From: Aequorivita sp. CIP111184
Lineage (GTDB): Bacteria > Bacteroidota > Bacteroidia > Flavobacteriales > Flavobacteriaceae
DNA length: 64,000 nt
NCBI RefSeq assembly: GCF_900489465.1
Contig: NZ_UEFQ01000013.1
Location: 496,001 to 560,000 of the forward strand
Reading direction: 5' to 3'
This document shows, in pieces, positions 1-25,404 of this stretch. Both the position numbers and the translations under genes were made by a program. The notes under the pieces are model-generated. The model saw nothing but the letters and a program-made list of their open reading frames with translations. It had not been told where the DNA came from and did no database searches. The stretch's first letter is position 1. Every line of letters begins with the position of its first letter.

Positions 1-205
1 TGAATTGTTGGATGAAATGCTTCCTAGGGATGCTTCCTATAAAGAACAAATAACATTCGTAAAAGACCGTCCTGGCCATGATTTTAGATACGCTATTGAC
101 GCTTCAAAAATTGAAAACGAGTTAGGTTGGAAAGCGAAGGAGAATTTTGAAACTGGTATCAAGAAAACGATAGCTTGGTATTTGGATAATAGAGATAGAT
201 TATAA
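1..205 (+). CDS. rfbB: dTDP-glucose 4,6-dehydratase, C-terminal end (5' partial)
   Basis: Only about the last 67 residues are present, because the gene begins before the window; the reading frame is open from base 2. The tail contains a [12 protein letters not shown] stretch followed by E-LGW, which is the typical C-terminal signature of RmlB/RffG short-chain dehydratases. The enzyme converts dTDP-glucose to dTDP-4-keto-6-deoxyglucose. It is followed after 13 bases by rfbA, so it belongs to the same operon. Its product is the branch point for both dTDP-rhamnose (rfbC, rfbD) and dTDP-Fuc4NAc (wecE, wecD), and both branches are encoded downstream. Confidence 0.9.
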
Positions 206-218
206 TTTTAAGCCACAT

Positions 219-1076
219 ATGAAAGGAATAATTTTAGCAGGAGGTTCAGGCACACGTTTGCACCCCATCACTTTGGCAGTCAGCAAACAACTTATGCCTG
301 TCTATGACAAACCGATGATATATTATCCGTTATCAACACTTATGTATGCTGGTATTCGGGATATTTTAATTATTTCCACTCCGCAGGATCTCCCTCTTTT
401 TAAACAACTTTTGGGCGATGGAAAAAAACTGGGCTGCAACTTTGAATATGCAGAACAAGCAAACCCAAATGGACTGGCAGAGGCTTTTATTATTGGCAAG
501 GAGTTTATTGGCAATGATAAAGTTGCCTTAATTCTTGGCGACAACATTTTTTACGGTTCTGGTTTGAAGGAACTTTTGCAATCAAATAATAATCCTGATG
601 GCGGAGTAATTTATGCATACCATGTGTTAGATCCTGAAAGATATGGCGTTGTGGACTTTGATAAAGATGGAAAAGCACTTTCCATTGAAGAAAAGCCAAA
701 AAACCCCAAATCAAATTATGCAGTTCCCGGAATCTATTTTTATGATAATAGCGTCGTGGAAATTGCCGCGAACATAAAACCCAGCGCTCGAGGCGAACTC
801 GAAATAACCGATGTGAACAACGTGTACTTAAAAAAAGGTAAATTAAATGTTAGTATTCTTGATAAAGGCACAGCGTGGCTGGACACGGGCACCTTTGCTT
901 CCTTAATGCAAGCAGCACAATTTGTTGAGGTTATTGAAGAACGACAAGGCTTAAAAATTGGTGCCATTGAAGAAGCTGCTTATGAAATGGGCTATATTTC
1001 AAAGGAACAGTTAATCGCCTTGGCAGAACCTTTATTGAAAAGCGGATATGGAAAACATTTACTTCAACTCGATTAA
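219..1076 (+). CDS. rfbA: Glucose-1-phosphate thymidylyltransferase
   Basis: Nucleotidyltransferase of 285 residues, the normal length for RmlA. The nucleotide-binding loop GGSGTRLHP lies at residues 8-16, followed by [18 protein letters not shown]. It makes dTDP-glucose from dTTP and glucose-1-phosphate in the cytoplasm, the first step for rhamnose and Fuc4NAc donors. It sits between rfbB and rfbC in a tightly packed operon; only 2 bases separate it from rfbC. The family assignment is secure, and the same enzyme could serve as RffH for the ECA-like pathway downstream. Confidence 0.97.
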
Positions 1077-1078
1077 AT

Positions 1079-1624
1079 TTGGAACTACAAAAAACTCCTT
1101 TAAAAGATTGTTTTATACTCAAACCGGATGTTTTTAGGGATGAACGGGGTTTATTTTATGAAACCTACAATCAAGCCTCATTTGAAAAAATCACGGGATT
1201 AAAATTTAATTTTGTCCAAGACAACCAATCTGTTTCATCAAAGGGTGTACTGCGCGGGCTTCATTTTCAAAATGGAGAAATGGCACAGGCCAAGCTTGTT
1301 CGGGTTGTGAAAGGCGAGGTTTTAGATATAGTGGTTGATCTTCGGAAAGATTCCGAAACTTTTCGAGAATCTTTCTCCCTTATTTTGAACGATAAAGAAC
1401 ATCTTCAACTTTTTGTGCCTAGAGGTTTTGCGCATGGCTTTATTACACTTTCTGAACAATCTATATTTTCTTATAAGTGTGATAATTATTACGATAAAAC
1501 TTCAGAAAGCGGAATCATCTATAATGACGCAACCTTAGCATTAGATTGGCATCTTCCAAAGGAAGAATTCATTATTTCAGCAAAAGATTTGGAACTTCCC
1601 ACTTTTGAGGAAGCGATTTCATGA
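1079..1624 (+). CDS. rfbC: dTDP-4-dehydrorhamnose 3,5-epimerase
   Basis: RmlC family cupin-fold epimerase of 181 residues. The conserved RGLHFQ motif carries the catalytic His near residue 62, and FVPRGFAHGF lies further on. It converts dTDP-4-keto-6-deoxyglucose to dTDP-4-keto-L-rhamnose. The start is taken as TTG two bases after the rfbA stop, since no ATG exists before the conserved N-terminal FxDxRG(L/F)FxE region. The stop overlaps the rfbD start (ATGA), indicating translational coupling. Confidence 0.95.
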   Translation: MELQKTPLKDCFILKPDVFRDERGLFYETYNQASFEKITGLKFNFVQDNQSVSSKGVLRGLHFQNGEMAQAKLVRVVKGEVLDIVVDLRKDSETFRESFSLILNDKEHLQLFVPRGFAHGFITLSEQSIFSYKCDNYYDKTSESGIIYNDATLALDWHLPKEEFIISAKDLELPTFEEAIS

Positions 1625-2484
1625 AAAAAATATTGGTTACAGGCGCTAACGGACAACTGGGAAGATGCATAAAAGATGCTGCACCCGATTTCCTCGACCT
1701 TGAATTTATCTTCCTTTCAAAAGAAGAGTTGGATATTGAAAATTCGGCGTTGCTTGCAGATTTCTTAAAAAAAAACACTTTTAATTTTTGCATAAATACA
1801 GCTGCTTACACTAACGTTGAAAATGCGGAAAGTGAGTCTGAAAAAGCATTTACAATCAACGCCCAAGCAGTGAAAAATTTAGCTGAAACCTGTAAGGAAA
1901 ATCACGTTGTTCTGCTTCATATTTCCACTGACTACGTTTTTGACGGAAAAAAAGAATCTCCTTACTTGGAATCCGATGCAACAAACCCCCTCAATGTTTA
2001 CGGTGCTTCAAAACTCAAAGGAGAAGATTATATTCAAGAAATTTGCGATAAATTTTTTATTTTCCGCACTTCTTGGCTCTATTCGCAATACGGTCATAAT
2101 TTTTTGAAAACAATCTTGAGGTACGCTAGAGAAGGAAAGCCGCTTACTATTACCACCGAACAAATTGGAACTCCTACAAATGCAAATGATTTGGCAAATG
2201 CGCTATTACAGACAATTTCACAAAATTCAATAGATTATGGCGTTTATCACTATAGTAACTATGGGGAGACTACTTGGTTTGGCTTTGCAGAAGCGATACT
2301 CCAGCTAACGGAAAAATTAAAAGATACAAATCTTGCAAAAACCAACCATTACCGTACTTTTGCCGCAAGACCAAAGTATAGTGTTCTAGATAACACAAAG
2401 GCACAGAATACGTTAAAATTAAAGCATATAGACTGGCTGGAAAGCTTAAAATCTGTATTAATAAAGACAGTCAATAATTTATAA
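1621..2484 (+). CDS. rfbD: dTDP-4-dehydrorhamnose reductase
   Basis: Extended short-chain dehydrogenase of 287 residues. The Rossmann motif GANGQLG is at residues 8-14, STDYVFDG follows the central strands, and the catalytic YxxxK pair is Y127/K131 in YGASK. It performs the NAD(P)H-dependent last step of dTDP-L-rhamnose synthesis. It overlaps rfbC by 4 bases and ends the rhamnose block; the Wzz-like gene follows after 12 bases. Confidence 0.96.
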   Translation: MKKILVTGANGQLGRCIKDAAPDFLDLEFIFLSKEELDIENSALLADFLKKNTFNFCINTAAYTNVENAESESEKAFTINAQAVKNLAETCKENHVVLLHISTDYVFDGKKESPYLESDATNPLNVYGASKLKGEDYIQEICDKFFIFRTSWLYSQYGHNFLKTILRYAREGKPLTITTEQIGTPTNANDLANALLQTISQNSIDYGVYHYSNYGETTWFGFAEAILQLTEKLKDTNLAKTNHYRTFAARPKYSVLDNTKAQNTLKLKHIDWLESLKSVLIKTVNNL

Positions 2485-2496
2485 TAATAGTTGTTT

Positions 2497-3459
2497 ATGG
2501 CACAGCAAAATTCATCAGAAGAGGTTGATTTGGGGTATTTGTTCCGAAAATCTAACAATTTTTTTAAACACTTGGCAAAAGCCTTGTTTCAAGCTTTAGA
2601 CTTCCTAAGAAAATACTTTGTTATCCTAATCATTTTAGTACTCATCGGGTTCGCTTATGGATATTACAAAGATTACAATACTGAGGAAACCTATAAAACC
2701 GAAGTCATTGTAATTCCAAATTTTGAAAGTGTTGATTATATGTATGGAAGAGTGGAAGCAATTAATCTCAAAATTGCTCAAGGTGACACTCTTTATCTCA
2801 AGAATATCTTTGGTAAAGATTTTGGAAAGCTTCAAAATATTGAATTAGAAGCAATCGTTGACATTTATAATTTTATATCTAAATCTTATAGAAATTATGA
2901 TGTGTTAAGGCTTATAGCTGAAAATCAAGATTTTTCAAAATATGCCGAAGACCTTTCCACAAGCAAGTATTACAAGTATCATCGCATGATTATTTCAATA
3001 AAAGGAGGCAATTCTTCCGAAAATATTGTTACTGACCTTCTTGCTTTCCTTAACGAAAACAATCATTTCAAGGATTATCAAAAAGTTTACAAAGAGAATA
3101 ACGAGCTAGACATTCAAGAGCATTATTTGATGATATCACAGATAGACTCCGTTATGAAAGCAAATTCTAATTTAAATAATACAGCGACTAATGTTTCTAT
3201 CAATAACGGAACCGATTTGTTTAATCTTATTGACAGGAAAAGACAATTGATAAAAGAAATTTTAGAACTTAAAATGGAAGCTATAGACTTTAGCGTGCCT
3301 ATCAAAATTGTAAGTGCTGATTATAACTTGGAATCCTCAAAAATAATACAGATACCAAACAAAATTAAGTATCCATTACTTTTAGTGTTTTTGTTTTCAC
3401 TCGTATTTTTTATTATATATCTTTTTAAGAGTCTAAAAAAATATTCGTCTTTAGAGTAA
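2497..3459 (+). CDS. Wzz-like polysaccharide chain-length determinant
   Basis: About 320 residues with two membrane segments, near residues 40-57 and 290-311, flanking a large predicted periplasmic region. This is the topology of Wzz/polysaccharide co-polymerase proteins without a fused kinase. The ATG at 2497 is preferred to the TTG two codons earlier. Sequence conservation with classical Wzz is weak by eye, so the call rests on topology and position between sugar-nucleotide genes. It probably regulates polymer length with one of the Wzy-like proteins downstream. An unusual point is the long hydrophilic central region rich in Asn, Lys and Tyr. Confidence 0.65.
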   Translation: MAQQNSSEEVDLGYLFRKSNNFFKHLAKALFQALDFLRKYFVILIILVLIGFAYGYYKDYNTEETYKTEVIVIPNFESVDYMYGRVEAINLKIAQGDTLYLKNIFGKDFGKLQNIELEAIVDIYNFISKSYRNYDVLRLIAENQDFSKYAEDLSTSKYYKYHRMIISIKGGNSSENIVTDLLAFLNENNHFKDYQKVYKENNELDIQEHYLMISQIDSVMKANSNLNNTATNVSINNGTDLFNLIDRKRQLIKEILELKMEAIDFSVPIKIVSADYNLESSKIIQIPNKIKYPLLLVFLFSLVFFIIYLFKSLKKYSSLE

Positions 3460-3511
3460 AGACGCTACTAATTTATTTATTGTAAAAATCCTTTTTTCAA
3501 AGAAGAATTTC

Positions 3512-4636
3512 ATGAAAAAGAAGAACTTAATTGTTTTTGGAACAAGGCCAGAAGCTATAAAAATGGCTCCTTTGGTTCAGAAATTTATAGAGAATAAAAA
3601 TTTTGATACTAAAGTATGTGTTACTGCACAGCACCGTGAAATGCTTGATCAAGTATTGGATTTCTTTGAAATAACACCAGATTTTGATTTGAATTTGATG
3701 AAACCAAATCAAAATCTTTACTCTCTAACAGCCTCCATAATTGAGAATATGAAACCCGTCCTTGATGAGGTTAAACCAGATTATGTATACGTTCACGGAG
3801 ATACAACAACATCTATGGCGGTAGGTATTGCTGCTTTTTATAGTGGCGCTAAAATATGTCACGTAGAGGCAGGCTTAAGAACTTTTGACAGACAATATCC
3901 TTTCCCTGAAGAATTCAACCGTCAGCTTACTGGAAAAATTGCTGATTTTCATTTTTCGCCTACTGAGCTTTCTAAGAGAAATCTTTTAGTGGAAAACACT
4001 AAAGAAGACAACATCCTAGTTACCGGCAATACTGTAATAGATGCACTTCTTTATGGAATTGAAAAAGTAAATGCTGAAAACTTTATTGATGAAGAAATTG
4101 AGAGTTTAAAAACTATTTTGAATTTTCAGAAAAAAATTATACTTGTTACTGGACATAGACGAGAAAATCATGGAGATGGGCTAATAAACATTTGTACAGC
4201 TTTAAAAACAATTGCACAAAACAATCCAGATGTTGAGATAATTTATCCAGTTCATTTAAATCCGAATGTAAAAGGACCAGTGAACGAACTTCTTGGCGGG
4301 ATTGAAAATATACATTTAATAGCCCCATTGGCATACCCTGCGTTTATTTGGCTAATGGAGAAATCCTATTTAATCATTACAGATAGTGGCGGAATTCAGG
4401 AAGAAGCACCAAGCTTGGGGAAACCTGTTTTGGTAACAAGAACCACCACCGAGCGTCCAGAAGCTGTTGAAGAAGGCACTGTAATTTTAGTAGGGACAGA
4501 TTCAAATAGAATTATTGACGAAACCGAAAAATTATTGATTAATAAAGAATATTACGAAGGAATGAGTATGCTTCACAACCCGTATGGGGACGGAAAAGCA
4601 ACCCAACGAATTGTAAATTTTATTGAAGGATTATAA
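3512..4636 (+). CDS. wecB: UDP-N-acetylglucosamine 2-epimerase (non-hydrolysing)
   Basis: Protein of 374 residues, matching the length of the WecB/MnaA family. Diagnostic motifs are FGTRPEAIKMAPL at the N-terminus, VHGDTTTSMA, HVEAGLRTFDRQYPFPEE, TGHRRENHG and the nucleotide-binding TDSGGIQEEAPSLGKPVLV near the C-terminus. It interconverts UDP-GlcNAc and UDP-ManNAc in the cytoplasm. It is followed after 2 bases by wecC, which uses its product, so the pair forms the UDP-ManNAcA module of an ECA-like pathway. Confidence 0.97.
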   Translation: MKKKNLIVFGTRPEAIKMAPLVQKFIENKNFDTKVCVTAQHREMLDQVLDFFEITPDFDLNLMKPNQNLYSLTASIIENMKPVLDEVKPDYVYVHGDTTTSMAVGIAAFYSGAKICHVEAGLRTFDRQYPFPEEFNRQLTGKIADFHFSPTELSKRNLLVENTKEDNILVTGNTVIDALLYGIEKVNAENFIDEEIESLKTILNFQKKIILVTGHRRENHGDGLINICTALKTIAQNNPDVEIIYPVHLNPNVKGPVNELLGGIENIHLIAPLAYPAFIWLMEKSYLIITDSGGIQEEAPSLGKPVLVTRTTTERPEAVEEGTVILVGTDSNRIIDETEKLLINKEYYEGMSMLHNPYGDGKATQRIVNFIEGL

Positions 4637-4638
4637 AA

Positions 4639-5856
4639 ATGAAGAACAAACCCACTGTGGTAATGATGGGCCTAGGCTATATTGGTTTACCAACAGCAGC
4701 TTTAATTGCCAGTAAAGGAATAAAAGTAACAGGAATTGATATAAATCAACATGTTGTAGACACTATAAATGAGGGCAAAATACACATTGTTGAGCCAGAT
4801 CTAGATGGACTGGTTCATCATGTGGTAAAGCAAGGCTATCTAAACGCCTCCATAAAGCCCGTAGAAGCAGATGTCTATTTAATTGCGGTACCAACCCCTT
4901 TTAAAGATAATCACGTGCCAGATCTCTCTTATGTAGAAAGCGCGGTAAAAAATATTATTCCAACATTACAAAAAAATGCACTTGTTATCTTAGAATCAAC
5001 AAGTCCAGTCGGAACAACCCATAGTATTCAAAAAATAATTTTTGAGGCACGACCTGACTTAAAAGGCGAAATCTTTATTGCATATTGTCCAGAACGGGTA
5101 TTACCAGGAAACGTTATTTATGAACTAGAACAAAATGATCGTGCAATAGGCGGAATTGATGAAGCATCCACCGAAAAAGCCATTTGGTTTTACAAGCATT
5201 TCGTTAAAGGTGAATTGCATAAAACCAATTCTCAAACTGCTGAAATGTGCAAATTGGTTGAAAACTCCTCACGCGATGTTCAGATAGCATTTGCAAATGA
5301 GCTTTCAATGATCTGCGATAAAGCTAATATCAATGTGTGGGAATTGATTCGTTTGGCAAACAAACATCCTCGAGTAAACATATTGCAGCCAGGAACTGGC
5401 GTTGGCGGCCATTGTATCGCTGTAGATCCGTGGTTTATAGTTTCTGAATTTCCTGAGGAATCAAAAATAATACGTTCTGCGCGCGAAATAAATAACTATA
5501 AAACTGAGTGGGCCATTGAAAAAGTAAAAAATGCCGCACTTCAGTTTAAAATTGATAATGGTAGAGATGCTATTATAGCTTGTATGGGTCTTGCATTTAA
5601 ACCAAACATTGATGATTTAAGAGAATCTCCCGCACTTCACGTAGCTGAACAGTTACAAACAGATGGTTTTAAAGTATTATTTGTGGAGCCAAATTTGAAT
5701 ACACACACCAAATACCAGCTAACAGAAATGAATAAAGCAAATGAAAAAGCCGATATCATTACCTATTTGGTAGCTCACAAAGAGTTTAAAGGCTTAAAGC
5801 TGAACGCTGAAATAAAAGTTTTTGATTTTTGTGGTGTGCTTAATACAATCAAATAA
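4639..5856 (+). CDS. wecC: UDP-N-acetyl-D-mannosamine dehydrogenase
   Basis: UDP-glucose/GDP-mannose dehydrogenase family protein of 405 residues. The NAD-binding motif GLGYIG is at residues 11-16, and the catalytic Cys (about C259) sits in GVGGHCIAVDPWF, where HCIAVDPWF is typical of WecC rather than of UDP-glucose dehydrogenases. It oxidises UDP-ManNAc to UDP-ManNAcA. Its immediate position after wecB supports this substrate. A second, distinct enzyme of the superfamily (ugd, 27.0 kb) uses UDP-glucose. Confidence 0.95.
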   Translation: MKNKPTVVMMGLGYIGLPTAALIASKGIKVTGIDINQHVVDTINEGKIHIVEPDLDGLVHHVVKQGYLNASIKPVEADVYLIAVPTPFKDNHVPDLSYVESAVKNIIPTLQKNALVILESTSPVGTTHSIQKIIFEARPDLKGEIFIAYCPERVLPGNVIYELEQNDRAIGGIDEASTEKAIWFYKHFVKGELHKTNSQTAEMCKLVENSSRDVQIAFANELSMICDKANINVWELIRLANKHPRVNILQPGTGVGGHCIAVDPWFIVSEFPEESKIIRSAREINNYKTEWAIEKVKNAALQFKIDNGRDAIIACMGLAFKPNIDDLRESPALHVAEQLQTDGFKVLFVEPNLNTHTKYQLTEMNKANEKADIITYLVAHKEFKGLKLNAEIKVFDFCGVLNTIK

Positions 5857-5944
5857 ATTATTGAATCTGTGAAAGATGTAGTGAACATACTACCACTATA
5901 AAATCATAGAGCCTTTTTAGATGAACCTATAATTTTAAAATAGC

Positions 5945-6640
5945 ATGCCTATAGAAAAGGTAAATTGGGATAGTGAATTTTTTGGTTACAATGTAGGCAA
6001 ATTGATGCTATCGAAAGGTTCTTCCTTTAGCTTGCAAGAATTTCTGAAAGAGAGTGAAAGCTTTAAATTGGTCTACATTTTTTCTCAGGATAAATTGGAT
6101 GATGCTCCATTAAGATTGATGGATGAAAAGGTGGTATTTAAATACAATCTTAATCAATGGAAAAAGAGAGCTTCCAATAAAAACTTAACTTCTTTTAATT
6201 TTAGTATAGACGGTTACGAACAGTTAAAACAACTTTCCTTAAAAAGTGGGCTATATTCTAGATTCAGCAGAGACGAAAATTTTAGAAATGATGAATTTCA
6301 AAGAATGTATCTGCAATGGATTGAGAATCTGGTCATCAAAAAAGAAGCTTTTGAAATAATTGTCTATATAGAGAGCAACGATATTCTAGGTTTTGCATCT
6401 TTAAACACAAAGGAGGATAATACCGCAAATATTGGCTTAGTAGCAGTAAGCAATAAAGCTCGGGGAAAAGGAATTGGTTCTCAACTAATCGAAGAAGCAA
6501 TAAATATAGCGGCCGCGAAAGGATTTAATAGTATTGAGGTAGTAACACAAATGGAAAATCAAGCTGCCGTCGGACTTTACAAAAAATGTGATTTTGAGAT
6601 AAAATCAATTACAAATATTTATCATTACTGGAATCTATGA
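5945..6640 (+). CDS. wecD: WecD-like dTDP-4-amino-4,6-dideoxygalactose N-acetyltransferase
   Basis: GNAT protein of 231 residues. The N-terminal half has the WecD pattern W-x-SEFFGYNVG, then RFSRDENF and YLQWIEN. The C-terminal GNAT core carries KARGKGIGSQL (acetyl-CoA loop, about residues 170-180) and VTQMENQAAVGLYKKC. In ECA synthesis WecD acetylates dTDP-Fuc4N to dTDP-Fuc4NAc. It overlaps wecE by 4 bases, and wecE makes its substrate. The 88-base gap after wecC contains no recognisable gene. Acetylation of another amino sugar is possible, but the WecD-specific N-terminal region and the neighbours favour Fuc4N. Confidence 0.85.
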   Translation: MPIEKVNWDSEFFGYNVGKLMLSKGSSFSLQEFLKESESFKLVYIFSQDKLDDAPLRLMDEKVVFKYNLNQWKKRASNKNLTSFNFSIDGYEQLKQLSLKSGLYSRFSRDENFRNDEFQRMYLQWIENLVIKKEAFEIIVYIESNDILGFASLNTKEDNTANIGLVAVSNKARGKGIGSQLIEEAINIAAAKGFNSIEVVTQMENQAAVGLYKKCDFEIKSITNIYHYWNL

Positions 6641-7767
6641 TACCTTTTAACAAACCCTTCCTTTCAGGAAACGAACTTCAATATATTTCGGAAGCAGTAA
6701 CCTCAGGCAAAATTTCTGGAAATGGCATTTTTACTAAAAAATGTCAAACTTTTTTTGAAGAAAAATTCAGCTTTAAAAAAACACTGTTGACTACCTCTTG
6801 TACAGATGCGCTAGAAATGGCAGCCCTGTTAATTAATATAAAACCGGGAGACGAAATAATTGTACCCTCATATACCTTCGTTACCTCTGCTCTTGCATTT
6901 GTGCGGGAGGGAGCCAAAATAGTTTTTGTAGACAGCAGAGATGACCATCCGGGCATGGATGAACAGAAAATTGAAGCTGCCATTACCAATAAAACTAAAG
7001 CAATTGTAGTGGTTCATTATGCAGGAGTTGCTTGCGATATGGATGTTGTAATGGATGTGGCATTACGTAACAATTTATATGTAATAGAAGATGCCGCTCA
7101 AGGAATAGACTCATATTATAAACAGAAACCCTTAGGAGGAATTGGACATTTGGGCGCTTTCTCCTTTCACGAGACCAAAAATATTATTTCAGGCGAAGGA
7201 GGATTGCTTTCCATTAATTACAAGGATTTTTTAGATAGGTCCGAGATTATTTGGGAAAAAGGAACCAATCGCTCTGCTTTCTTTAAAGGAGAAGTAGATA
7301 AATATGGATGGGTAGATACAGGATCTTCCTTTTTACCATCAGATATTATAGCAGCATTTTTATATGCTCAGCTGGAAAATCTTGATAAAATACAAACCAA
7401 AAGGAAGATTTTGTGGAATACTTATTACAAAGGTCTTCAAAATCTTCAAGAAACCGGACAAATTAAACTTCCCAGTATTCCTGATTATGCAACAAATAAC
7501 GCCCACATGTTTTATGTGGTCACAGAAAATCCGGAACATCGGGATAAACTAATTTCTTTTTTAAAAGAAAAGGGTGTGCACGCGGTTTTTCATTATCTCT
7601 CGTTGCATAAAAGCTCATATTATGAAGGCTTATACGGTAAAACAGAACCACTAAAAAATGCTGATAGATATTCTGAGAATTTAATACGTCTTCCGTTGTT
7701 CTTTGAACTTGAAACTTCTCACGTGGAATATATTGTACAATGCATTGCAGATTTTTATAAAAAATAG
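6637..7767 (+). CDS. wecE: dTDP-4-amino-4,6-dideoxygalactose transaminase
   Basis: DegT/DnrJ/EryC1/StrS aminotransferase of 376 residues. It opens with MIPFNKP, and SCTDALEMAALL, PSYTFVTSALAFV, VHYAGVACDMD, EDAAQG, then FHETKN (PLP lysine about K181) and WEKGTNRSAFF follow in the order seen in E. coli WecE. It transaminates dTDP-4-keto-6-deoxyglucose to dTDP-Fuc4N using glutamate. The close similarity over the whole length makes the WecE subfamily assignment strong. Confidence 0.93.
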   Translation: MIPFNKPFLSGNELQYISEAVTSGKISGNGIFTKKCQTFFEEKFSFKKTLLTTSCTDALEMAALLINIKPGDEIIVPSYTFVTSALAFVREGAKIVFVDSRDDHPGMDEQKIEAAITNKTKAIVVVHYAGVACDMDVVMDVALRNNLYVIEDAAQGIDSYYKQKPLGGIGHLGAFSFHETKNIISGEGGLLSINYKDFLDRSEIIWEKGTNRSAFFKGEVDKYGWVDTGSSFLPSDIIAAFLYAQLENLDKIQTKRKILWNTYYKGLQNLQETGQIKLPSIPDYATNNAHMFYVVTENPEHRDKLISFLKEKGVHAVFHYLSLHKSSYYEGLYGKTEPLKNADRYSENLIRLPLFFELETSHVEYIVQCIADFYKK

Positions 7768-7805
7768 TCCCAACTTTGCCGTAGCACTTCATAAATTTAT
7801 ATCCA

Positions 7806-8969
7806 TTGAGAATACTTCATATAACTTCAGATGAAAAGTTTATAAATAGTATTTACTGGCAGTTCGAAAATGTATTTCCTGGAAGTAATGAGTTTGTGGT
7901 TTTTTTAGCCAAAGGAGTTAAAGAACCAAAATATGTTTCTATTGAAAATAATCTTCAAATAATTTCTGAAAATTCGAAAGGCCTTAAATTTTGCTTAGAC
8001 CAAATAAGTAAGTTCGATTTAATAATATTTCACGGACTTATGTATTTCCAAAGTATGGTTTTTTTGAAGGCGAAAAATCCAAATAAATTTATCTGGTTTT
8101 TTTGGGGCGGTGAACTTTATGACAATCCCCGCGCCAATTTTAATAACACTTTGGGAAAGAGAACGAGCAGAACGCAAAGCCCTGAAAGTATTAAGAATAA
8201 AGTAAAGGCAGCGATTAGACCCTTCTATTATCAGCTAAAAAATTCATCTTTAACTCCCGAAAAATCTGTTTTAAAAGCTGCGCGCCAAATAAAGTATTTT
8301 GGAGTAATTCACGAAGAAGAAGTGGCTTTGTTGCAATCAAAACATTTATTATCTAAGGATGTAGTGCACATAAAGATGTCTTATTATCCCATTGAATTTA
8401 TTTTTAAAGGCATTGAAAAAAATATAGTCACACACGAAAATATTCTGGTAGGCAATTCTGCTTCTCGAACAAATAATCATTTAGAAGCGTTTGATATCTT
8501 AAAAAAGATGCCGCTGAAAGATAGAAAAGTCATTGCCCCACTCAATTATGGTGATATGGAGTATGCAAATATCATAGTGGAAGAGGGAAAAAATCTTTTT
8601 GGTGAAAATTTTCAGGCTATTACCACCTTTTTGCCATTACAGGAGTATAATAAATTTATTACGAAATGTGGCATAGTGGTTATGAATCATTATAGACAAC
8701 AGGCCATCGGGAATATTTTGGCCATGTTGTGGATGGGAGCGAAAGTGTATTTAGATGAGAAAAATACCTTTTATCATTATTTGAAAAGAAAACAGGTTCA
8801 TGTTTATTCTATAGAAAAAGATTTAAAGCTAGAGAATACCCAAGCTTTAAAAAAATTGGAAGCAGATAAAGTTGCCCACAATAGACAAATTTTAACAGAC
8901 GAAATAAGTTTTGAAACTTTAAAGACAGATCTTAAAAATCAATTGACGGCTTTAGTTCATGAGTATTAG
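7806..8969 (+). CDS. wecF: WecF-like Fuc4NAc transferase (GT56 family)
   Basis: Protein of 387 residues resembling TDP-Fuc4NAc:lipid II Fuc4NAc transferase. Seen features are MRILHITSDEKF at the start, FIWFFWGGELYD, VLVGNSASRTNNHLEAFDIL and VVMNHYRQQAIGNILAMLWMGAKVYL, the last two being characteristic of the family. The start must be a TTG, since no in-frame ATG occurs early. It would add the third sugar of an ECA-type repeat on the inner leaflet of the cytoplasmic membrane. It overlaps the flippase gene by 11 bases. A CAACTTTG at 7771 is a weak promoter-like element. Confidence 0.85.
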   Translation: MRILHITSDEKFINSIYWQFENVFPGSNEFVVFLAKGVKEPKYVSIENNLQIISENSKGLKFCLDQISKFDLIIFHGLMYFQSMVFLKAKNPNKFIWFFWGGELYDNPRANFNNTLGKRTSRTQSPESIKNKVKAAIRPFYYQLKNSSLTPEKSVLKAARQIKYFGVIHEEEVALLQSKHLLSKDVVHIKMSYYPIEFIFKGIEKNIVTHENILVGNSASRTNNHLEAFDILKKMPLKDRKVIAPLNYGDMEYANIIVEEGKNLFGENFQAITTFLPLQEYNKFITKCGIVVMNHYRQQAIGNILAMLWMGAKVYLDEKNTFYHYLKRKQVHVYSIEKDLKLENTQALKKLEADKVAHNRQILTDEISFETLKTDLKNQLTALVHEY

Positions 8970-10272
8970 CAAACAGGCAATAAATGGCGTAAAATGGACC
9001 ACGGTAGCAACCGCGACAATTGCTATTTGTATGTTGCTAAAAATTTCCGTTCTAACGCGTTTTTTAGATAAATCAGACTTTGGGCTGATAGCATTGGTTT
9101 CTTTTATTCTCGGGTTTATGGATTTGTTTATGGATATGGGGATAACCTCTGCAATTCTTCACAAACAAAATATAAAAGAAAAAGAATATGCAAGTTTGTA
9201 TTGGCTCAATGTTTTTTTTAGCTTAATTCTCTTTGCCCTCATTGTGTCTTTGGGTCCTGTTTTAGCCGACTTCTATAATGAGCCTCAGTTAGCGCAACTT
9301 GTTTCCGTTATGGGAGTAGGGATAATATTTTCAGCTATAGGAAGACAATACAAGACCATTCTTCAAAAGGAAATTGAATTTAAGACCATTGCCCTAGTAG
9401 AAATTATTGCGGCTGTTATATCGTTGATTTTGGCAATCCTGTTGGCCATAGAAAATTTCGGAGTTTATGCCTTGGTCTATTCAGCATTAGTACAATATTT
9501 TTTGAGCAATGTTTTATTTTTTATTATTGGCGTTAGAAAGCAGGCATTACTATTCCATTATAACTACGCTGAAACCAAACCTTTTTTGAAAATAGGGATT
9601 TATCAGGTGGGAAGTCAAGTAGTGAACTACTTTAATAGAGATTTGGATATTTTAATTATTGGTAAGTTTTTTGGGGCAGATTTATTGGGTGGCTACAGCC
9701 TTGCCAAACAACTTGTATTTAGACCTGCACAGATATTGAATCCTATTTTTACCCGAGTGGCGACCCCAATCTTGGCCAAAATGCAAAGTGACATAAAATT
9801 ATTGAAAACAAATTATTTGAAATTATTAAACGCCGTGAGCAGCATAAATGTTCCAATATATACGGGTATTATTGTTTTTGCGCCCCTAATAGTAACCATC
9901 TTATACGGCGAGCAATACCTCAACATTGTACCCGTTGTAAGGATACTTAGTGTTTATATGATATTTAGAGCCATCGGAAACCCTGTGGGTAGTTTGGTTA
10001 TTGCTACCGGAAGAACAGATTTAGAATTTTTCTGGAATATTTTTACCCTAATCTTTTTACCAATTGCTATAATTCTTGGGGCACAGTTTTCAATAGAAGC
10101 TGTAGCAATAGCAATTACAGTTGCAATGGCAATACTGCTAGTGCCCAGCTGGCGTTTTTTGGTTTATAGATTAACGGGTGCCTCGCTTAAAGAATATCTA
10201 GTTGCTATAATCCCAAAGTTTAAATATGCTGAAATAAAGGCACTTCTAAAAAGAAATAAAAGTACAGATTAA
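8959..10272 (+). CDS. Wzx-type lipid-linked oligosaccharide flippase (MOP family)
   Basis: Hydrophobic protein of 437 residues with about 12 predicted membrane segments. The N-terminal region (ARFLDKSDFGLIALV-like pattern, then DMGITSAILHKQ) and a central YQVGSQVVNYFNRDLDILIIGKF stretch are typical of the WzxC/TuaB branch of the MOP superfamily rather than of WzxE. It should translocate undecaprenyl-linked repeat units to the periplasmic face. It overlaps wecF by 11 bases and is the last gene of the forward-strand operon; the next genes run in the opposite direction. Confidence 0.88.
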   Translation: MSISKQAINGVKWTTVATATIAICMLLKISVLTRFLDKSDFGLIALVSFILGFMDLFMDMGITSAILHKQNIKEKEYASLYWLNVFFSLILFALIVSLGPVLADFYNEPQLAQLVSVMGVGIIFSAIGRQYKTILQKEIEFKTIALVEIIAAVISLILAILLAIENFGVYALVYSALVQYFLSNVLFFIIGVRKQALLFHYNYAETKPFLKIGIYQVGSQVVNYFNRDLDILIIGKFFGADLLGGYSLAKQLVFRPAQILNPIFTRVATPILAKMQSDIKLLKTNYLKLLNAVSSINVPIYTGIIVFAPLIVTILYGEQYLNIVPVVRILSVYMIFRAIGNPVGSLVIATGRTDLEFFWNIFTLIFLPIAIILGAQFSIEAVAIAITVAMAILLVPSWRFLVYRLTGASLKEYLVAIIPKFKYAEIKALLKRNKSTD

Positions 10273-11479: not shown

Positions 11480-11495
11480 AATAAATATTTTAGGG

Positions 11496-12623: not shown

Positions 12624-12639
12624 TTTGAATTTTTTTTGA

Positions 12640-13587: not shown

Positions 13588-13633
13588 TATATTCAAATTT
13601 AATATGAATATACTAATTTTATATTTATTAATT

Positions 13634-16603: not shown

Positions 16604-16611
16604 TAGCTTTG
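16604..16611 (+). promoter_or_regulatory. Bacteroidota-type -7 element before a Wzy-like gene
   Basis: TAGCTTTG matches TAnnTTTG, 42 bases upstream of the TTG start at 16654, inside the 143-base gap after the FkbM gene. No clear -33 TTG is visible. Confidence 0.45.
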
Positions 16612-16653
16612 TGGCATCACTGGAAGGGGATAGTCCATCCATAAATTCATACA

Positions 16654-17799
16654 TTGAAGTCTATATATCAAATAATACTGGTTGTCCTTTTTTTAAGTGT
16701 TGGCACGCTCAGCTTCAGTAGTTTAATGGCACTTTGCTTAGTGGTGTTGCTTTTTGGAGCATGGGTAGCTACTAAAAAGGGAAAGTTGGAAGTGCCCCAT
16801 TATGTTATTGTTGTGGCTTGTTTTTATATTCCTTTTTTAATATTAGGATTAATACACGAATATCCAAATCCAACTATTGATATAAAATTTCAGTTCTACG
16901 GACTTATTTTTTATCTTTTTCTGGTAAACGTTAAAGATCTAAAAATACTCCGCGTACTTTTTATTTTAAATGCCGTAGTCGCAATTGTTTATATATTAAG
17001 TTATTTAGGCTTTGTACCCAGCTTGTGGAATATAGATACTACCGGAAAAGGAGGCCGCGTATACGGCCCGGCAATTATACCAATTGTTCTTATTGGTTTT
17101 TACTATCTATACAACAGAATGTCTTTTGATTTGCCGCTTGCTGTCTCGTGGGTAATTGCATTGATTTATTTGTTTCTTACTTCAAATTTAATGAACCTCG
17201 TTACAGCAGGTGTCTTGCTTTTATTGATTGTAATAAATGTGAGCAAGATTTTCAAACCAGTTTTTATTTTAGGTTTTTCCTTAATGATTGTTGTTTCTAT
17301 AGCATTCTTTAATTCAAAATATGCTCCTGAGGCAATTAAGGAAAAATTACCGTACGTGCTTAAACCATGGGAATATGATAGTTTGAAAATTAGAATACAG
17401 GATTTAAACACAGCACTATTGACAGAAAATTTTACTTGGTCCGAAAAATTAATTGGAAAAGGTTTTGGTGTAACCACAACGGTATATCGTGAGAATAAAA
17501 TAGCACAATTTTTCAGCGGGAAATTTACATTTCTGGAAATAGATAACGGATTTTATTATGTCTATCACCGAGGTGGGTTTTTGTTGCTCTTCATATTTTT
17601 AATAGCTCATATTTATCTAGTTTTTAAAATTCCTTCCATGAAGGCAAAACTTGGGTTTATAGCATTAGTTCTTTTTACAAACCTTCTTTCTATCCATTAT
17701 TTTACAAACATGTTCTATTTAATAGTGCCATTTTTAATTCTTGAAACTGAAATAAGAAGTAAAAAGCAGCTCTCCAAAAGCATAAGTAATGAAGAATAG
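16654..17799 (+). CDS. O-antigen polymerase/ligase-like membrane protein (first of three)
   Basis: Very hydrophobic protein of 381 residues with about 10-11 membrane segments and one larger hydrophilic loop (around residues 220-290), the layout of Wzy or WaaL-type proteins. A GKGFGVTT stretch before the loop end and a late NGFYYVYHRGG resemble the GxGxG...HN region of Wzy_C proteins, though the usual HN pair is not clear. The TTG start is needed because no earlier ATG is in frame. It overlaps the next glycosyltransferase by 11 bases. It could be the Wzy of this locus; sequence alone does not say which repeat unit it joins. Confidence 0.65.
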   Translation: MKSIYQIILVVLFLSVGTLSFSSLMALCLVVLLFGAWVATKKGKLEVPHYVIVVACFYIPFLILGLIHEYPNPTIDIKFQFYGLIFYLFLVNVKDLKILRVLFILNAVVAIVYILSYLGFVPSLWNIDTTGKGGRVYGPAIIPIVLIGFYYLYNRMSFDLPLAVSWVIALIYLFLTSNLMNLVTAGVLLLLIVINVSKIFKPVFILGFSLMIVVSIAFFNSKYAPEAIKEKLPYVLKPWEYDSLKIRIQDLNTALLTENFTWSEKLIGKGFGVTTTVYRENKIAQFFSGKFTFLEIDNGFYYVYHRGGFLLLFIFLIAHIYLVFKIPSMKAKLGFIALVLFTNLLSIHYFTNMFYLIVPFLILETEIRSKKQLSKSISNEE

Positions 17800-18790
17800 T
17801 TTATACGTTGTGCCTAATCTGAATAAAATTTCCGGAGGGCCCATTACAAGAATTAATTTATTTAAAAAAGCGTTTCAAAAAGAAGGCGGACAAATAATAA
17901 CTGAAGAGAATAAACTTAAATCAATATTTCAGAAACGGGATATTTGCTACATAGAATCGGCCACAAACAGAATAGCGCTAATAGATTTATTGCCTCTTTT
18001 CTTTATAAAATTTAGATCCAAAAAAGTAATTGTTTTTATACGAGATATTTACATCGAACTTTTTCCGGAGGATTACAGTGGTTTTCGCAAAAAAATTACA
18101 TTCTATCTAAATAAATTTAGCAACTTTTACCTTACTTGGGTTTCTACTTCTATGGTATTTCCCACAAAGGAAATGGGTGAGGTTTTCTTTCAGAAAAACA
18201 AATTTTTTCCCAAGAGGCCTTATTCCGATTTGCCACCCGGAACCTATAATATCACACAAAATATAAAACTTCCAGATTTTTCAAAGAAACTTGGACTACT
18301 ATATTTGGGAAGCATTGACTATAAAAACTCTGGTTTTGATGCTTTTATTTTATTCGCAAAAAAATATTCTCAGAACTATAATTTCTTTGTGCTATCTGGA
18401 GCCACAAATATTAGCGAAATGCTTCAAGGAACAACTATTAAAGCCTCAAAAATTCCACGTGCTGATATTGCAGCCTTTATTCAGAATAATAATATTGCGT
18501 ATGCGCTACATACCCGACCACGAAATATGTATGACGATCTCACGTTTCCTATAAAAGTGTTCGATTTTTTAAGTTTTCAACTCCCCTTTTTTACTGAAAA
18601 ACATATTCCACTAGAAAACCTTTTAAGCAACGATTATCCCCTTTTTGCATCTTTTGAAAATAGTGATCAAATAAATCAAAAAATTATCAGTATTGGAGCC
18701 CCAGAATATAAAGATTTGCTCCATTCCCTAAAAACAATAGCCCTTAACAATACGTATGATAAAAGGTATCAGAAGTTACTGGAACAATAA
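17789..18790 (+). CDS. Glycosyltransferase, GT-B-like
   Basis: Protein of 333 residues. The start VPNLNKISGGPITRINLFKKAF resembles the N-terminal acceptor loop of family 4 enzymes, and the C-terminal half has GLLYLGSIDYKNSG, FVLSGATNISEML and PIKVFDFLSFQLPFFT, the last being where GT4 enzymes have their donor-binding E-x7-E motif, which is not intact here. It overlaps both neighbours (11 bases upstream, 35 downstream). It probably adds one sugar of the repeat unit; donor and acceptor cannot be told. Confidence 0.65.
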   Translation: MKNSLYVVPNLNKISGGPITRINLFKKAFQKEGGQIITEENKLKSIFQKRDICYIESATNRIALIDLLPLFFIKFRSKKVIVFIRDIYIELFPEDYSGFRKKITFYLNKFSNFYLTWVSTSMVFPTKEMGEVFFQKNKFFPKRPYSDLPPGTYNITQNIKLPDFSKKLGLLYLGSIDYKNSGFDAFILFAKKYSQNYNFFVLSGATNISEMLQGTTIKASKIPRADIAAFIQNNNIAYALHTRPRNMYDDLTFPIKVFDFLSFQLPFFTEKHIPLENLLSNDYPLFASFENSDQINQKIISIGAPEYKDLLHSLKTIALNNTYDKRYQKLLEQ

Positions 18791-19997
18791 TTCACCAAGA
18801 AGGTTGTTTTTTGAAGCCAGCACCTGTCTTTTTGTTGCTACCTTACCTTTATGGGAAAACCTGAATACTATTGTATTGTGGATTTTTGTTGCTTCCTCAG
18901 TATTTTTAATAGCGCCAAAAGAGCGTTTGCAGAATCTCAAAAAAAATAATATTGCTTTTTATTTTTTAGTCGCCCTCTATTTACTGTTTGTAATGGGTTG
19001 GTTTTTTTCTACCAATGTAAAAGATGCTCTCAGGGATATGGAACGCACCTTGACCTTGGTTTTAATTCCACTCATTATACTTTCCCATAAACGAGAAGAT
19101 TTTAACCTTAAAAGAATCTATATTTCTTTGGGCACAGGACTTTTTATTGGAATGCTAATTTGCTGGGCATATATTATTAAATCAATTGTAACCAATGCTA
19201 CCCCTTGGGTTCAGGCAGGATACTTTTTTAAATGGATATACAACGGGTGGAATGCCCTAATACCCTTAGAAGGTCACCCAAGCTATTTTGCAATAATGAT
19301 TGTAATCTTTATCTTGGGTATTATAAGAATGCCAGAATTCATCAATTTAAGGAAGAATAAACTGAAACTTATTCTTTTGCTAATTCCTTTCTTTCTTTTT
19401 TTAATAGAAACGAGCAGCAGAATTGGAGTTATTTGTTTAATCGTGATGATTGTTGTTACTATATTTAGAAAACTGGAAATTAAAAAGATCTTCTACTTAA
19501 TTGGTTTGGTTGCAATCTTGGCCATACTTTCCATAAAATTTGATTATTTGGGCTCCAAATTTGCCACAATTGTTGATACCCAAGGAAATGTAACATTGGA
19601 CAGATATCCGCGTTGGATAGCTATTCTTTCAGATTTTAGTAATCGGGGAAATTGGATTTTCGGAATAGGTACAGGGGACTCGCAGGCATTATATGATATG
19701 GCCTATAGCAAGAGCGGATTTACAATAGCACTGGACAATCACTATAATGCACATAATCAATATATAGAATTTCTCATTTCAACTGGATTATTGGGGTTAT
19801 CCATCTTTATTATTGTTTTGCTTATCTTTTTTAGGAATACAAATTTAAAAGGGGAAGCGATGAGCTTTTTTATAATAATAGCGCTATTTTCATTTTCGGA
19901 AAGCATTTTTGGATTAAGTAAAGGAGTGTTTATTTTTGCTTTTTTCTATTCCCTATTTATTCTTTGGTACCCAAATAAAGCCATAAAATTTAAATAA
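18756..19997 (+). CDS. O-antigen ligase family protein (second of three)
   Basis: Membrane protein of 413 residues with about 10-12 segments. It has a Wzy_C type region: ETSSRIGVICLIV, then after a large loop FGIGTGDSQALY and DNHYNAHNQYIEFLISTGLLGL. The GxGxG and H-N-Q-(Y/F) pattern is characteristic of O-antigen ligase/polymerase enzymes that use undecaprenyl-linked glycans on the periplasmic side. The ATG lies 35 bases inside the preceding gene. Either ligation to lipid A core or polymerisation is possible. Confidence 0.8.
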   Translation: MIKGIRSYWNNNSPRRLFFEASTCLFVATLPLWENLNTIVLWIFVASSVFLIAPKERLQNLKKNNIAFYFLVALYLLFVMGWFFSTNVKDALRDMERTLTLVLIPLIILSHKREDFNLKRIYISLGTGLFIGMLICWAYIIKSIVTNATPWVQAGYFFKWIYNGWNALIPLEGHPSYFAIMIVIFILGIIRMPEFINLRKNKLKLILLLIPFFLFLIETSSRIGVICLIVMIVVTIFRKLEIKKIFYLIGLVAILAILSIKFDYLGSKFATIVDTQGNVTLDRYPRWIAILSDFSNRGNWIFGIGTGDSQALYDMAYSKSGFTIALDNHYNAHNQYIEFLISTGLLGLSIFIIVLLIFFRNTNLKGEAMSFFIIIALFSFSESIFGLSKGVFIFAFFYSLFILWYPNKAIKFK

Positions 19998-20017
19998 AAC
20001 GAAGCTAACAAAAGCCT

Positions 20018-21850: not shown

Positions 21851-21866
21851 ATTTCAAAAATTAAAT

Positions 21867-24141: not shown

Positions 24142-24252
24142 GTTCCTAAAACGATCGTATAAAATTTAATTCAACCAGATATTTCCGTGAGTATAAGCCA
24201 TTTGAATTTTATTTTATGAAATCATTTTTTACAATCTGGCCAACCTATTTTT

Positions 24253-24618
24253 ATGAAACTTAATTTAGATACCTCCACTCTTAGCATTTTTAATATTTCT
24301 GATAGCTATTCAAGTATTTTTATAACAACTACGGAAAGAATATTTGGAGTAAAATCTTTGGGTGGTGATGAGCACGAAATTGTAGAGATTGACAAAGCTT
24401 CAGGAAATAGTTTATCCATCTTAGCAACTATTTCAACAAGAGAGGTTCGAAATATTGATTATTCGCTTTCATCAAATAGGATTTTTGCGCTCCTTAATAA
24501 ATCTTTTAATAACCAATTCCTTTATACATTAAATCTTAATGATGGCACATCAATAACCACCCCTTTAGATGTAGAAGATCAGCATTTGGATTTTGAAGGA
24601 ATCTATTTAAACAATTAG
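24253..24618 (+). CDS. Hypothetical protein, possible beta-propeller fragment
   Basis: Open frame of 121 residues with no signal peptide. Repeated short strand patterns (ERIFGVKSLGGDEHEIVEID, NRIFALLNKSFNNQFLYTLNLNDG) look like blades of a YncE or NHL-type propeller, which would need several times this length. In frame, a stop lies 36 bases upstream of the ATG, so the N-terminal part is missing. It may be a remnant of a longer lipoprotein gene, or a small real gene. The 111 bases before it hold no clear promoter. Confidence 0.4.
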   Translation: MKLNLDTSTLSIFNISDSYSSIFITTTERIFGVKSLGGDEHEIVEIDKASGNSLSILATISTREVRNIDYSLSSNRIFALLNKSFNNQFLYTLNLNDGTSITTPLDVEDQHLDFEGIYLNN

Positions 24619-24632
24619 TATGTTATAAATAC

Positions 24633-24640
24633 TATCTTTG
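24633..24640 (+). promoter_or_regulatory. Bacteroidota-type -7 element for the wecG-like gene
   Basis: TATCTTTG, a full TAnnTTTG match, 17 bases before the GTG start of the WecG/TagA-type gene. The short distance fits the brief leaders seen elsewhere in this window. Confidence 0.5.
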
Positions 24641-24657
24641 CTCGCTAAAAATAAATT

Positions 24658-25404
24658 GTGAGTACCCACCAAAGGATAAAAATCCTAAATACACCCATTG
24701 ATAATCTCTCCATGCAAGAAACCCTTGCCTTGGTTGAAGAAAAAATACAGACCGGCGAACAACTCCACCACGTTGTTGTAAACGCCGGAAAAGTTGTGGC
24801 GATGCAAAAAGATGCAGAACTGCGCCACAGTGTAAATCAATGCCACATTATCAATGCAGACGGTCAAGCGGTGGTTTGGGCTTCGAAGTTTTTAGGAAAA
24901 CCACTTAAAGAGCGGGTTGCAGGTATAGATTTAATGGCGAGTCTCGTAGAAATGGCACACAAAAACCACAACAAAATCTTTCTTTTTGGAGCAAAAGAAG
25001 AAGTGGTTAAAAATGTTGTTCAGAAATACTCTGAAATCTATAGTCCTGAGATTATTGCTGGTTACAGAAATGGTTATTTCAGCCCTTCCGAAGAGGAAGC
25101 AATTGCCCAACAGATAGCAGACAGTGGCACTCAAATGCTTTTCGTTGCAATCTCCTCACCTATCAAAGAAAATTTTCTTTACAAATACCGAGACATCCTT
25201 AAAGACGTAAACCTAATTATGGGCGTTGGCGGCAGTTTTGACGTAGTTGCCGGAAAAACTAAGCGAGCTCCAGCTTGGATGCAAAACGCAGGTTTGGAGT
25301 GGTTCTATCGCTTTGCACAAGAGCCAAGACGTATGTGGAAACGCTATTTGGTCGGAAATTCGAAATTTATCTTTTTAGTTCTAAAAGAAAAATTCTCTAA
25401 ATAA
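24658..25404 (+). CDS. wecG: WecG/TagA/CpsF family glycosyltransferase
   Basis: GT26 family protein of 248 residues with the GTG start. Family motifs are VVNAGKVVAMQKDAELR (catalytic region; here NAGK replaces the more usual NAxK), INADGQAVVWASKFLG, ERVAGIDLMASL, FLFGAKEEVV, and MGVGGSFDVVAGKTKRAPAWMQNAGLEWFYR. WecG adds ManNAcA to undecaprenyl-PP-GlcNAc in ECA synthesis, and TagA adds ManNAc in teichoic acid linkage units. Because wecB and wecC are at 3.5-5.9 kb, ManNAcA transfer is the best guess. The gene stands alone, with its own promoter-like element and a 286-base gap behind it. Confidence 0.85.
   Translation: MSTHQRIKILNTPIDNLSMQETLALVEEKIQTGEQLHHVVVNAGKVVAMQKDAELRHSVNQCHIINADGQAVVWASKFLGKPLKERVAGIDLMASLVEMAHKNHNKIFLFGAKEEVVKNVVQKYSEIYSPEIIAGYRNGYFSPSEEEAIAQQIADSGTQMLFVAISSPIKENFLYKYRDILKDVNLIMGVGGSFDVVAGKTKRAPAWMQNAGLEWFYRFAQEPRRMWKRYLVGNSKFIFLVLKEKFSK

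Follow-up and report, generated by a model that had tools for sequence, protein, structure and literature searches.

The closest described counterpart of the locus considered here is the wec system of Escherichia coli K-12, which builds enterobacterial common antigen (ECA) from the trisaccharide N-acetylglucosamine–N-acetylmannosaminuronic acid–4-acetamido-4,6-dideoxygalactose (GlcNAc-ManNAcA-Fuc4NAc) on a GlcNAc-1-phosphate primer. In the portion available, an ECA review (PMC7439462) describes ECA as absent from other Gram-negative bacteria, with Flavobacterium listed among them, and the accessible part of a genome survey (PMC7725333) places Fuc4NAc only in Gammaproteobacteria. The title of the report by Perepelov et al. 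(2013), however, gives both Fuc4NAc and ManNAcA as constituents of a Cellulophaga pacifica O-polysaccharide; a literature search did not recover the full structure of that polysaccharide. According to the excerpt at hand, WecC-dependent ManNAcA occurs in the S-layer glycan of Tannerella forsythia, another member of the Bacteroidota (PMC4030854), and in the available passage of a Myroides paper (PMC11534234) wecC appears only in a list of virulence factors. In Caulobacter, the WecG-family protein HfsJ is thought to act on undecaprenyl diphosphate-glucose; E. coli wcaJ compensates the loss of three initiators, and E. coli wecG fails to compensate the loss of hfsJ (PMC11340318, in part). Among the matches listed from the open-licence literature, judged by titles and the first lines of abstracts, no paper deals with gene clusters of this type in Flavobacteriaceae or Bacteroidetes, and none was found there for 4-formamido-4,6-dideoxygalactose (Fuc4NFo) or for GT56, GT-B and WecF searched in pairs. 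The subject of the present analysis is a gene cluster extending from rmlB to a WcaJ-type gene within the window, a stretch of 64,000 nucleotides from Aequorivita sp. CIP111184 (Flavobacteriaceae), whose first 25,404 positions had been taken, in a sequence-only reading, to hold a nearly complete ECA pathway.

The cluster is best explained as a single O-antigen-type locus of the Wzx/Wzy kind holding the full proposed pathway, a reading to which a probability of roughly 0.7 is assigned. It rests on direct observations: the genes themselves, the missing WecA match, the clade of the GT26 glycosyltransferase, the initiating enzyme with which this clade is partnered, and its association with wecC. 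In the predicted pathway, RmlA and RmlB would supply deoxythymidine diphosphate (dTDP)-4-keto-6-deoxyglucose, part of which RmlC and RmlD would convert to dTDP-L-rhamnose and part of which WecE and WecD would convert to dTDP-Fuc4NAc, while WecB and WecC would yield uridine diphosphate (UDP)-ManNAcA. The first sugar phosphate would be placed on undecaprenyl phosphate by the WcaJ-type enzyme, not by WecA; the GT26 protein would add the second sugar, most likely ManNAcA, and the GT56 protein Fuc4NAc, with rhamnose and the rest being added by other transferases. The repeat unit would then be flipped by Wzx and polymerised by a Wzy. Every substrate, the order of the sugars and all linkages in this scheme are predictions from sequence. 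Such a repeat would share ManNAcA and Fuc4NAc with ECA, not its GlcNAc-1-phosphate primer; since the starting enzyme is apparently a different one, what is made is probably a polymer of the O-antigen type rather than ECA.

Predicted sugars

The genes on which the predicted pathway draws are as follows.

1..205, forward strand: 3′ end of rmlB (dTDP-glucose 4,6-dehydratase); stop read at 203-205, remainder upstream
219..1076, forward strand: rmlA (glucose-1-phosphate thymidylyltransferase); TIGR01207 467.9 bits (cut-off 360.65)
1079..1624, forward strand: rmlC; TIGR01221 220.9 bits, over cut-off
1621..2484, forward strand: rmlD (L-rhamnose branch); TIGR01214 300.1 bits, over cut-off
3512..4636, forward strand: wecB (UDP-GlcNAc 2-epimerase); TIGR00236 481 bits (cut-off 210.15)
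4639..5856, forward strand: wecC (UDP-ManNAc dehydrogenase); NF008286 556.5 bits (cut-off 459)
5945..6640, forward strand: wecD-like GNAT N-acetyltransferase in an exchangeable acyl slot; NF008212 best, under cut-off; PDB 2fs5
6637..7767, forward strand: wecE (dTDP-4-amino-4,6-dideoxygalactose transaminase); NF008687 568.7 bits (cut-off 375)
7806..8969, forward strand: wecF-like GT56, predicted Fuc4NAc transferase; PF07429 67.2 bits
8959..10272, forward strand: wzx flippase; NF007773 406 bits, over cut-off
24658..25404, forward strand: GT26 (Lys-170 clade), predicted to transfer ManNAcA to a primer made by WcaJ; PF03808 201.5 bits
29302..30654, forward strand: WcaJ-type polyprenyl-phosphate hexose-1-phosphate transferase, predicted initiator; PF02397 212 bits

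As WecB, WecC, RmlA and WecE all score over curated cut-offs, UDP-ManNAcA and dTDP-4-amino-4,6-dideoxygalactose (dTDP-Fuc4N) are well supported, and so, as predicted sugars, are ManNAcA and Fuc4NAc; rmlC and rmlD add dTDP-L-rhamnose to the predicted set. RmlB, whose gene lies mostly upstream of the window (locus L002, 17198-18205), is 57% identical to E. coli RffG, and WecB and WecC are each 57% identical to their E. coli namesakes. The rfbA, rfbB, wecB and wecC genes named in the sequence-only reading are therefore indeed present, rfbB with its last 205 bases only. The further statement that WecE and WecD match their E. coli counterparts throughout holds for WecE, which is 53.6% identical over a 379-column alignment spanning both proteins. 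For the WecD-like protein the match is weak (27.8% identity, 72 bits), although WecD is its best NCBIfam model and E. coli WecD (2fs5) is its closest solved relative. The supposed scarcity of reports of this combination outside enterobacteria agrees with the survey that confines Fuc4NAc to Gammaproteobacteria, but is weakened by the C. pacifica title and by a sample of 395 Bacteroidota genomes, 58 of which encode a WecE that scores over the curated cut-off. Outside the Enterobacterales, wecB, wecC, rffG, rffH, GT56 and wecE also occur together in Pseudomonas sp. BN411 (L095) and Rheinheimera sp. UJ63 (L103).

The GT26 transferase and its probable initiating partner

The GT26 protein passes the Pfam (PF03808) and superfamily cut-offs and falls below the equivalog cut-offs of WecG (149 of 323 bits), TarA (156 of 350) and EpsA (144 of 500). 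Its relationships were traced in a survey of 397 Flavobacteriaceae genomes, 116 of which contain GT26. From these, 118 neighbourhoods were taken, the weak partial matches G058, G178 and G379 being left out and G229 coming from L032/L088. The resulting tree, with named loci included, has 131 rows and, like the GT56 tree described below, carries support from the Shimodaira–Hasegawa-like approximate likelihood ratio test (SH-aLRT) only; E. coli WecG is a long branch in it, as E. coli WecF is in the GT56 tree. Initiating enzymes were counted when encoded in the orientation of the GT26 gene and no more than 8 kb away. The window protein belongs to a clade of 55 rows (SH-aLRT 99), of which 43 have a PF02397 neighbour, 12 have no initiator in view and none has WecA. 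E. coli WecG instead joins (SH-aLRT 84) 21 Bacteroidota rows (starred, 97), nearly all from Flavobacteriaceae; with one locus counted twice, 19 of these have a WecA-like gene in the same orientation, lying downstream of GT26 in all but one, and 2 have none in view. On this tree the initiator labels change 4 times, as compared with 23.8 times in shuffles, none of 500 shuffles being as low.

The two groups also differ at a single position. Residue 170 of the window protein is Lys in 55/55 rows of its clade and Gln in all 76 others, E. coli included, whereas Asp68 is invariant in 131/131 rows. In TagA the corresponding position is occupied by Gln, an active-site residue. Lys170 was considered as a mark of WcaJ-type priming and rejected, given that Gln is retained in 25 GT26 rows that are linked to WcaJ yet lie outside the clade.

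A search for WecA in this 99.9% complete genome yielded none: the sole PF00953 match follows murE and passes the MraY model TIGR00445 (319 bits, cut-off 192). By contrast, PF02397 has five matches in the genome, one of them in this locus (29.3 kb). The latter protein scores 357.7 with TIGR03025, over the cut-off, and 401.9 with the glucose-transferase equivalog TIGR03023, for which 410.75 is required. The four other matches are found on contig C16 at 49062-52565 and 500234-500779, three of them clustered and one of these partial; they probably belong to another glycan locus.

These observations bear on whether the product could be the true ECA trisaccharide, its GlcNAc-1-phosphate being moved by an enzyme other than WecA. 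WecB, WecC and WecE over their cut-offs and the presence of both GT56 and GT26 would fit such a product, and one relative, Maribacter huludaoensis (L081), unites homologues of wecB, wecC, rffG, rffH, wecD, wecE, wecF, wecG and wecA in one locus. The WecG of this relative scores higher with the WecG model (190) than with TarA (126), the reverse of the window type, although its WecG, WecA, WecD and WecF are all below their cut-offs. In the Aequorivita genome, however, there is no WecA match, and the GT26 protein lies outside the WecA-linked clade; rmlC, rmlD and the further transferases imply additional sugars; and neither E. coli WzxE nor WzyE has a BLAST match among the tested window proteins at E 0.01. 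The Wzx passes the PRK10459 flippase cut-off, and by sequence the Wzx and Wzy of the locus are not of the ECA types. A true ECA is therefore highly improbable, and the GT26 gene was rejected as an ECA wecG because it falls in the separate 55-row clade.

The sequence-only reading thus keeps its pair of sugars, since the genes are best read as encoding a polymer with ManNAcA and Fuc4NAc, but its trisaccharide and its nearly complete ECA pathway are not supported. The phylogeny it had named beforehand as refuting places the GT26 protein outside the WecG clade and the GT56 protein in a Flavobacteriaceae group apart from E. coli WecF, itself a long branch. What it had called a wecG/tagA-type gene at 24.7 kb is a GT26 gene of neither equivalog, and its wecF-like transferase is a GT56 protein short of the WecF equivalog. 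Its Wzx and Wzy-like genes exist, as a wzx and two Wzy_C genes, whereas its Wzz-like gene has no family match at default settings. The suggested check for wecA found none in this genome, yet WecA-WecG pairs lie beside wec genes in four relatives: L081, L088 and L106, the latter two in loci with wecE-wecF, and the Aquimarina locus L045. The genes it had not named are rmlC and rmlD, three genes at 27.0-30.7 kb (ugd-like, uxs-like and WcaJ-type) and those of a block on the minus strand.

The donor of the GT26 transferase

Of 47 genomes that have the window's GT26 clade and were tested, 42 encode WecC over its NF008286 cut-off, as compared with 2 of 47 genomes with GT26 outside this and the E. coli-like clades and 10 of 80 tested genomes without GT26 (Fisher p about 2e-18 in either comparison). 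The first sample leaves out one of the 48 surveyed Lys170-clade genomes, G396, which holds the clade's outlying sister; the last is drawn from 281 genomes without GT26. In 33 of the 42 genomes, wecC and the clade GT26 are on one contig, 1.6-21.6 kb apart. Within genera, where a clade genome was set against a tested genome without GT26 or with another GT26 (types entered by hand), wecC goes with the window's clade in 11/11 genera; genomes with a WecA-adjacent WecG are omitted from these contrasts, and in g77, the one genus with both, both carry wecC. An over-strict wecC model as the cause of the contrast was rejected, the scores being bimodal (at least 479 bits as against at most 246). This association favours ManNAcA as the predicted GT26 donor.

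Alternatively, the GT26 protein may move another sugar (e.g., ManNAc, Glc or another uronic acid) with ManNAcA added by GTx or GT4, transferases described below, so that the link to wecC would be an effect of the whole locus. The level scores of the TarA, WecG and EpsA models would agree with this, as would the nearest solved structures, TagA/TarA: the GT26 model superposes on TagA with UDP-ManNAc at 1.7 Å, with a target TM-score of 0.93. For HfsJ, too, the part of PMC11340318 at hand describes the transferred sugar as unknown. Nevertheless, wecC follows this clade and not the other tested GT26 genes, within genera too, which makes another donor unlikely. When the E. coli-like clade is split by hand, the subclade with WecG, mostly beside WecA, has wecC in 7/9 genomes and the other, mostly near WecA, in 1/9. 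The GT26 donor of the latter (L211, L212, L213, L217, L224, L225, L232, L241 and L253) is probably not ManNAcA.

The GT56 transferase

The wecF-like protein exceeds the gathering cut-off of PF07429 (25 bits) and is about 20% identical to E. coli WecF. Thirteen columns, among them a GNS motif and an RQ pair, are invariant across 16 aligned GT56 rows including E. coli WecF. The WecF alignment, used to search the sequences of solved structures, gave nothing useful. The predicted structure (predicted local distance difference test score, pLDDT, 94.8) has its best PDB matches among GT4-like sugar transferases, e.g., sucrose-phosphate synthase, with a TM-score of about 0.6; these are retaining GT-B enzymes, as alpha-linked Fuc4NAc would need. 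In the GT56 tree, two starred sets separate the proteins: the one with the window protein has 7 rows, and the one with E. coli WecF has 19. With a pattern built from seven window-like proteins, 85 loci were found, of which 80 were kept as named loci; in 56 of the 80 a WecE-type gene lies no more than 3.2 kb from the GT56 gene, and 14 of these 56 contain wecB and wecC as well, so that the sugar pairing recurs in other loci.

Gene order, relatives and exchanged modules

The remaining features of the cluster are listed below.

2491..3459, forward strand: Wzz-like membrane protein, assigned by eye and position
10310-13596, reverse strand: Fn3-like protein and two leucine-rich repeat proteins with type IX secretion system sorting tails, inside the polysaccharide locus
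13634-15463, reverse strand: split heparinase II/III-like gene with an in-frame stop
16654..17799, forward strand: membrane protein "mem1", candidate polymerase or ligase; no family match
17789..18790, forward strand: "GTx", glycosyltransferase-like; role from synteny only
18756..19997, forward strand: Wzy_C protein 1, polymerase or ligase; PF04932 48.9 bits
21867..22949, forward strand: GT4 glycosyltransferase; PF00534 116.4 bits
24253-24618, forward strand: orphan reading frame of 121 aa preceding the GT26 gene; no family match
25691..26920, forward strand: Wzy_C protein 2, polymerase or ligase; PF04932 55.2 bits
27000..28313, forward strand: UDP-glucose dehydrogenase-like gene (ugd); TIGR03026 472, over cut-off
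28310..29296, forward strand: UDP-xylose synthase-like epimerase (uxs), named by eye; PF01370 and PF16363 (broader models)

From the rmlB end to wzx (1-10,272), all genes are tightly packed on the forward strand, and a second forward block runs through the GT26 gene to the end of the WcaJ-type gene at 30,654. It could be supposed that two separate glycans are encoded, one by the operon at 1-10.3 kb and another by the block at 15.6-30.7 kb, to which GT26 and WcaJ belong, a view with which the 5 kb minus-strand block between them and the second Wzy_C gene would accord. This is rendered improbable by four relatives, an uncultured Cellulophaga (L043), Muricauda (L044), Cellulophaga sp. 20_2_10 (L046) and an uncultured Maribacter (L066), in which the same genes form one ordered run, wecE-wecF-wzx-mem1-GTx-wzyC1-GT4-wecG-wcaJ, with GT26 proteins 68-70% identical to that of the window. 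The wzx-mem1 interval of L046 contains a lyase gene in reverse orientation; in L043 and L066 the scan of this interval shows a weak asnB-like match only. The single-run order suggests that the window's extra genes are insertions. The window locus, L032 and L034 share flanking genes, one of them purD (gene starts, compared by eye).

Neither mem1 nor GTx has a family match at default thresholds; homologues of both are present in the same 8 of the 80 GT56 loci. The Wzz-like protein, unmatched in a default profile search of NCBIfam and Pfam, meets a single Pfam model, PF22571, at E up to 1, below the cut-off of that model; weak relatives of it lie upstream of wecE in several related loci. The ugd-like protein reaches 560 bits with the TuaD model, below the cut-off of 700, and the uxs-like epimerase reaches no NCBIfam cut-off among the matches listed. 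Uninterrupted relatives of the heparinase II/III-like protein measure 596 aa (L047), 626 aa (L046) and 908 aa (L037), and a uronic-acid lyase within the locus would fit a ManNAcA polymer. The lyase gene was rejected as a mark of all such loci, a scan having found it in 2 of 54 Lys170-GT26 loci; the window, itself unscanned, is one of the 54 and has its own split gene. The 121-aa orphan frame may be a remnant.

Parts of these loci appear to be exchanged independently. An Aquimarina contig (L045 and L259) combines window-like wecF, mem1, GTx, wzyC1 and GT4 with a WecA-WecG pair, which suggests that primer modules are exchanged; L082 shows the reverse mix of WecF subtype and primer module. The idea that the WecF subtype tracks the primer type was rejected on these two cases. 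The N-acyl gene near wecE is likewise exchanged among relatives. In 56 loci with a WecE-type gene, the acyl gene within 2.6 kb is GNAT in 22, formyltransferase-like in 11, NeuD-like in 5 and hexapeptide in 4, none being recognised in 14. On the WecE tree, from which duplicates of named loci and rows below 300 aa were omitted, the 13 rows without a recognised acyl gene uncounted and four rows labelled hex2 by eye, the acyl labels change 23 times as compared with 24.3 in shuffles (56/200 as low); acyl types are thus not clustered on this tree. The formyltransferase-like protein of L027 has both formyltransferase Pfam domains, and its nearest solved relative is ArnA, the catalytic triad of which is Asn-His-Asp. 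All 17 aligned formyltransferase-like rows (14 distinct loci) have Val at the Asn position and keep the His and the later Asp; because of this Val, formyl transfer is unproven. Most of the 17 genes lie directly before wecE, examples being L027 11659-12546 (reverse strand) and L034 7178-8050 (forward strand).

Taken together, the Lys170 GT26 clade may be a second line of ManNAcA transferases acting on WcaJ-made undecaprenyl diphosphate-hexose instead of undecaprenyl diphosphate-GlcNAc. In Flavobacteriaceae, WcaJ and WecA-WecG primer modules would swap in syntenic ECA-like loci, and a separate acyl slot near wecE would swap acetyl, formyl-type and hexapeptide acyltransferases. This wider proposal is tentative, its chances being placed slightly below even. 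If it is true, ECA would be a form taken in enterobacteria by a modular glycan that occurs in other phyla too.

Points against the proposed pathway

Several findings weigh against the single-locus pathway and the roles assigned within it. The minus-strand block at 10,310-15,463, made up of unrelated genes, breaks the cluster in two. The WecD-like protein reaches 114 bits of the 219 of the curated WecD cut-off, and the best WecF equivalog model gives the GT56 protein 173 of 457 bits. The pattern used to collect GT56 loci, derived as it was from window-like proteins, biases them toward loci resembling the window. With four more PF02397 matches on another contig, the identity of the initiator is not certain, and a distance of 3.9 kb, occupied by three genes, separates the GT26 gene of the window from the WcaJ-type gene. 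Lys170 alone marks no primer, given the WcaJ-linked outside rows with Gln, and no donor either, since E. coli WecG, a ManNAcA transferase, has Gln at this position. Five genomes with the window's clade are without wecC over its cut-off, and another transferase of the same locus could explain the wecC link.

Comparison with known systems

The finding is real and is in part already explained by known chemistry; what is new is a WcaJ-linked and wecC-linked GT26 clade together with exchangeable slots. The locus offers a candidate gene basis for the sugar pair reported chemically from a Cellulophaga O-polysaccharide and speaks against the survey confining Fuc4NAc, in its accessible part, to Gammaproteobacteria (PMC7725333). 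The partner enzyme and a diagnostic residue tell two look-alike GT26 groups apart, which makes the primer of each testable, and an "ECA-like" call from wecB, wecC, wecE and a wecG/tagA match is unsafe without wecA.

The C. pacifica O-specific polysaccharide, known here by its title and with no genes linked to it, comes from a member of the same family and has the same pair of sugars. The Tannerella forsythia glycan differs in being a protein-linked oligosaccharide, with no Fuc4NAc in the structure given in the excerpt of PMC4030854. The Caulobacter arrangement, in which HfsE, PssY and PssZ precede HfsJ, likewise has a WcaJ-type start followed by a WecG-family transferase for the second sugar and may serve, by analogy, as a precedent for the WcaJ-type start and GT26 step proposed here. 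It differs in that another polymer is made and the sugar added by HfsJ is given as unknown; the likeness is one of description in the part of PMC11340318 available. The wall teichoic acid transferase TagA/TarA (PDB 7mpk, 7n41, 5wb4) shares its GT26 fold with the window protein, which differs in having Lys170 for the TagA Gln and in scoring below the TarA cut-off. With E. coli K-12 ECA, finally, the locus has in common close homologues of RmlA/RmlB, WecB, WecC and WecE (54-58% identity), a WecD-like GNAT protein, GT56 and GT26 transferases and a Wzx/Wzy route. It differs from the E. coli system in the missing WecA match, the other GT26 clade and the distant GT56 protein, and it adds rhamnose genes and a Wzx and Wzy that are not those of ECA.

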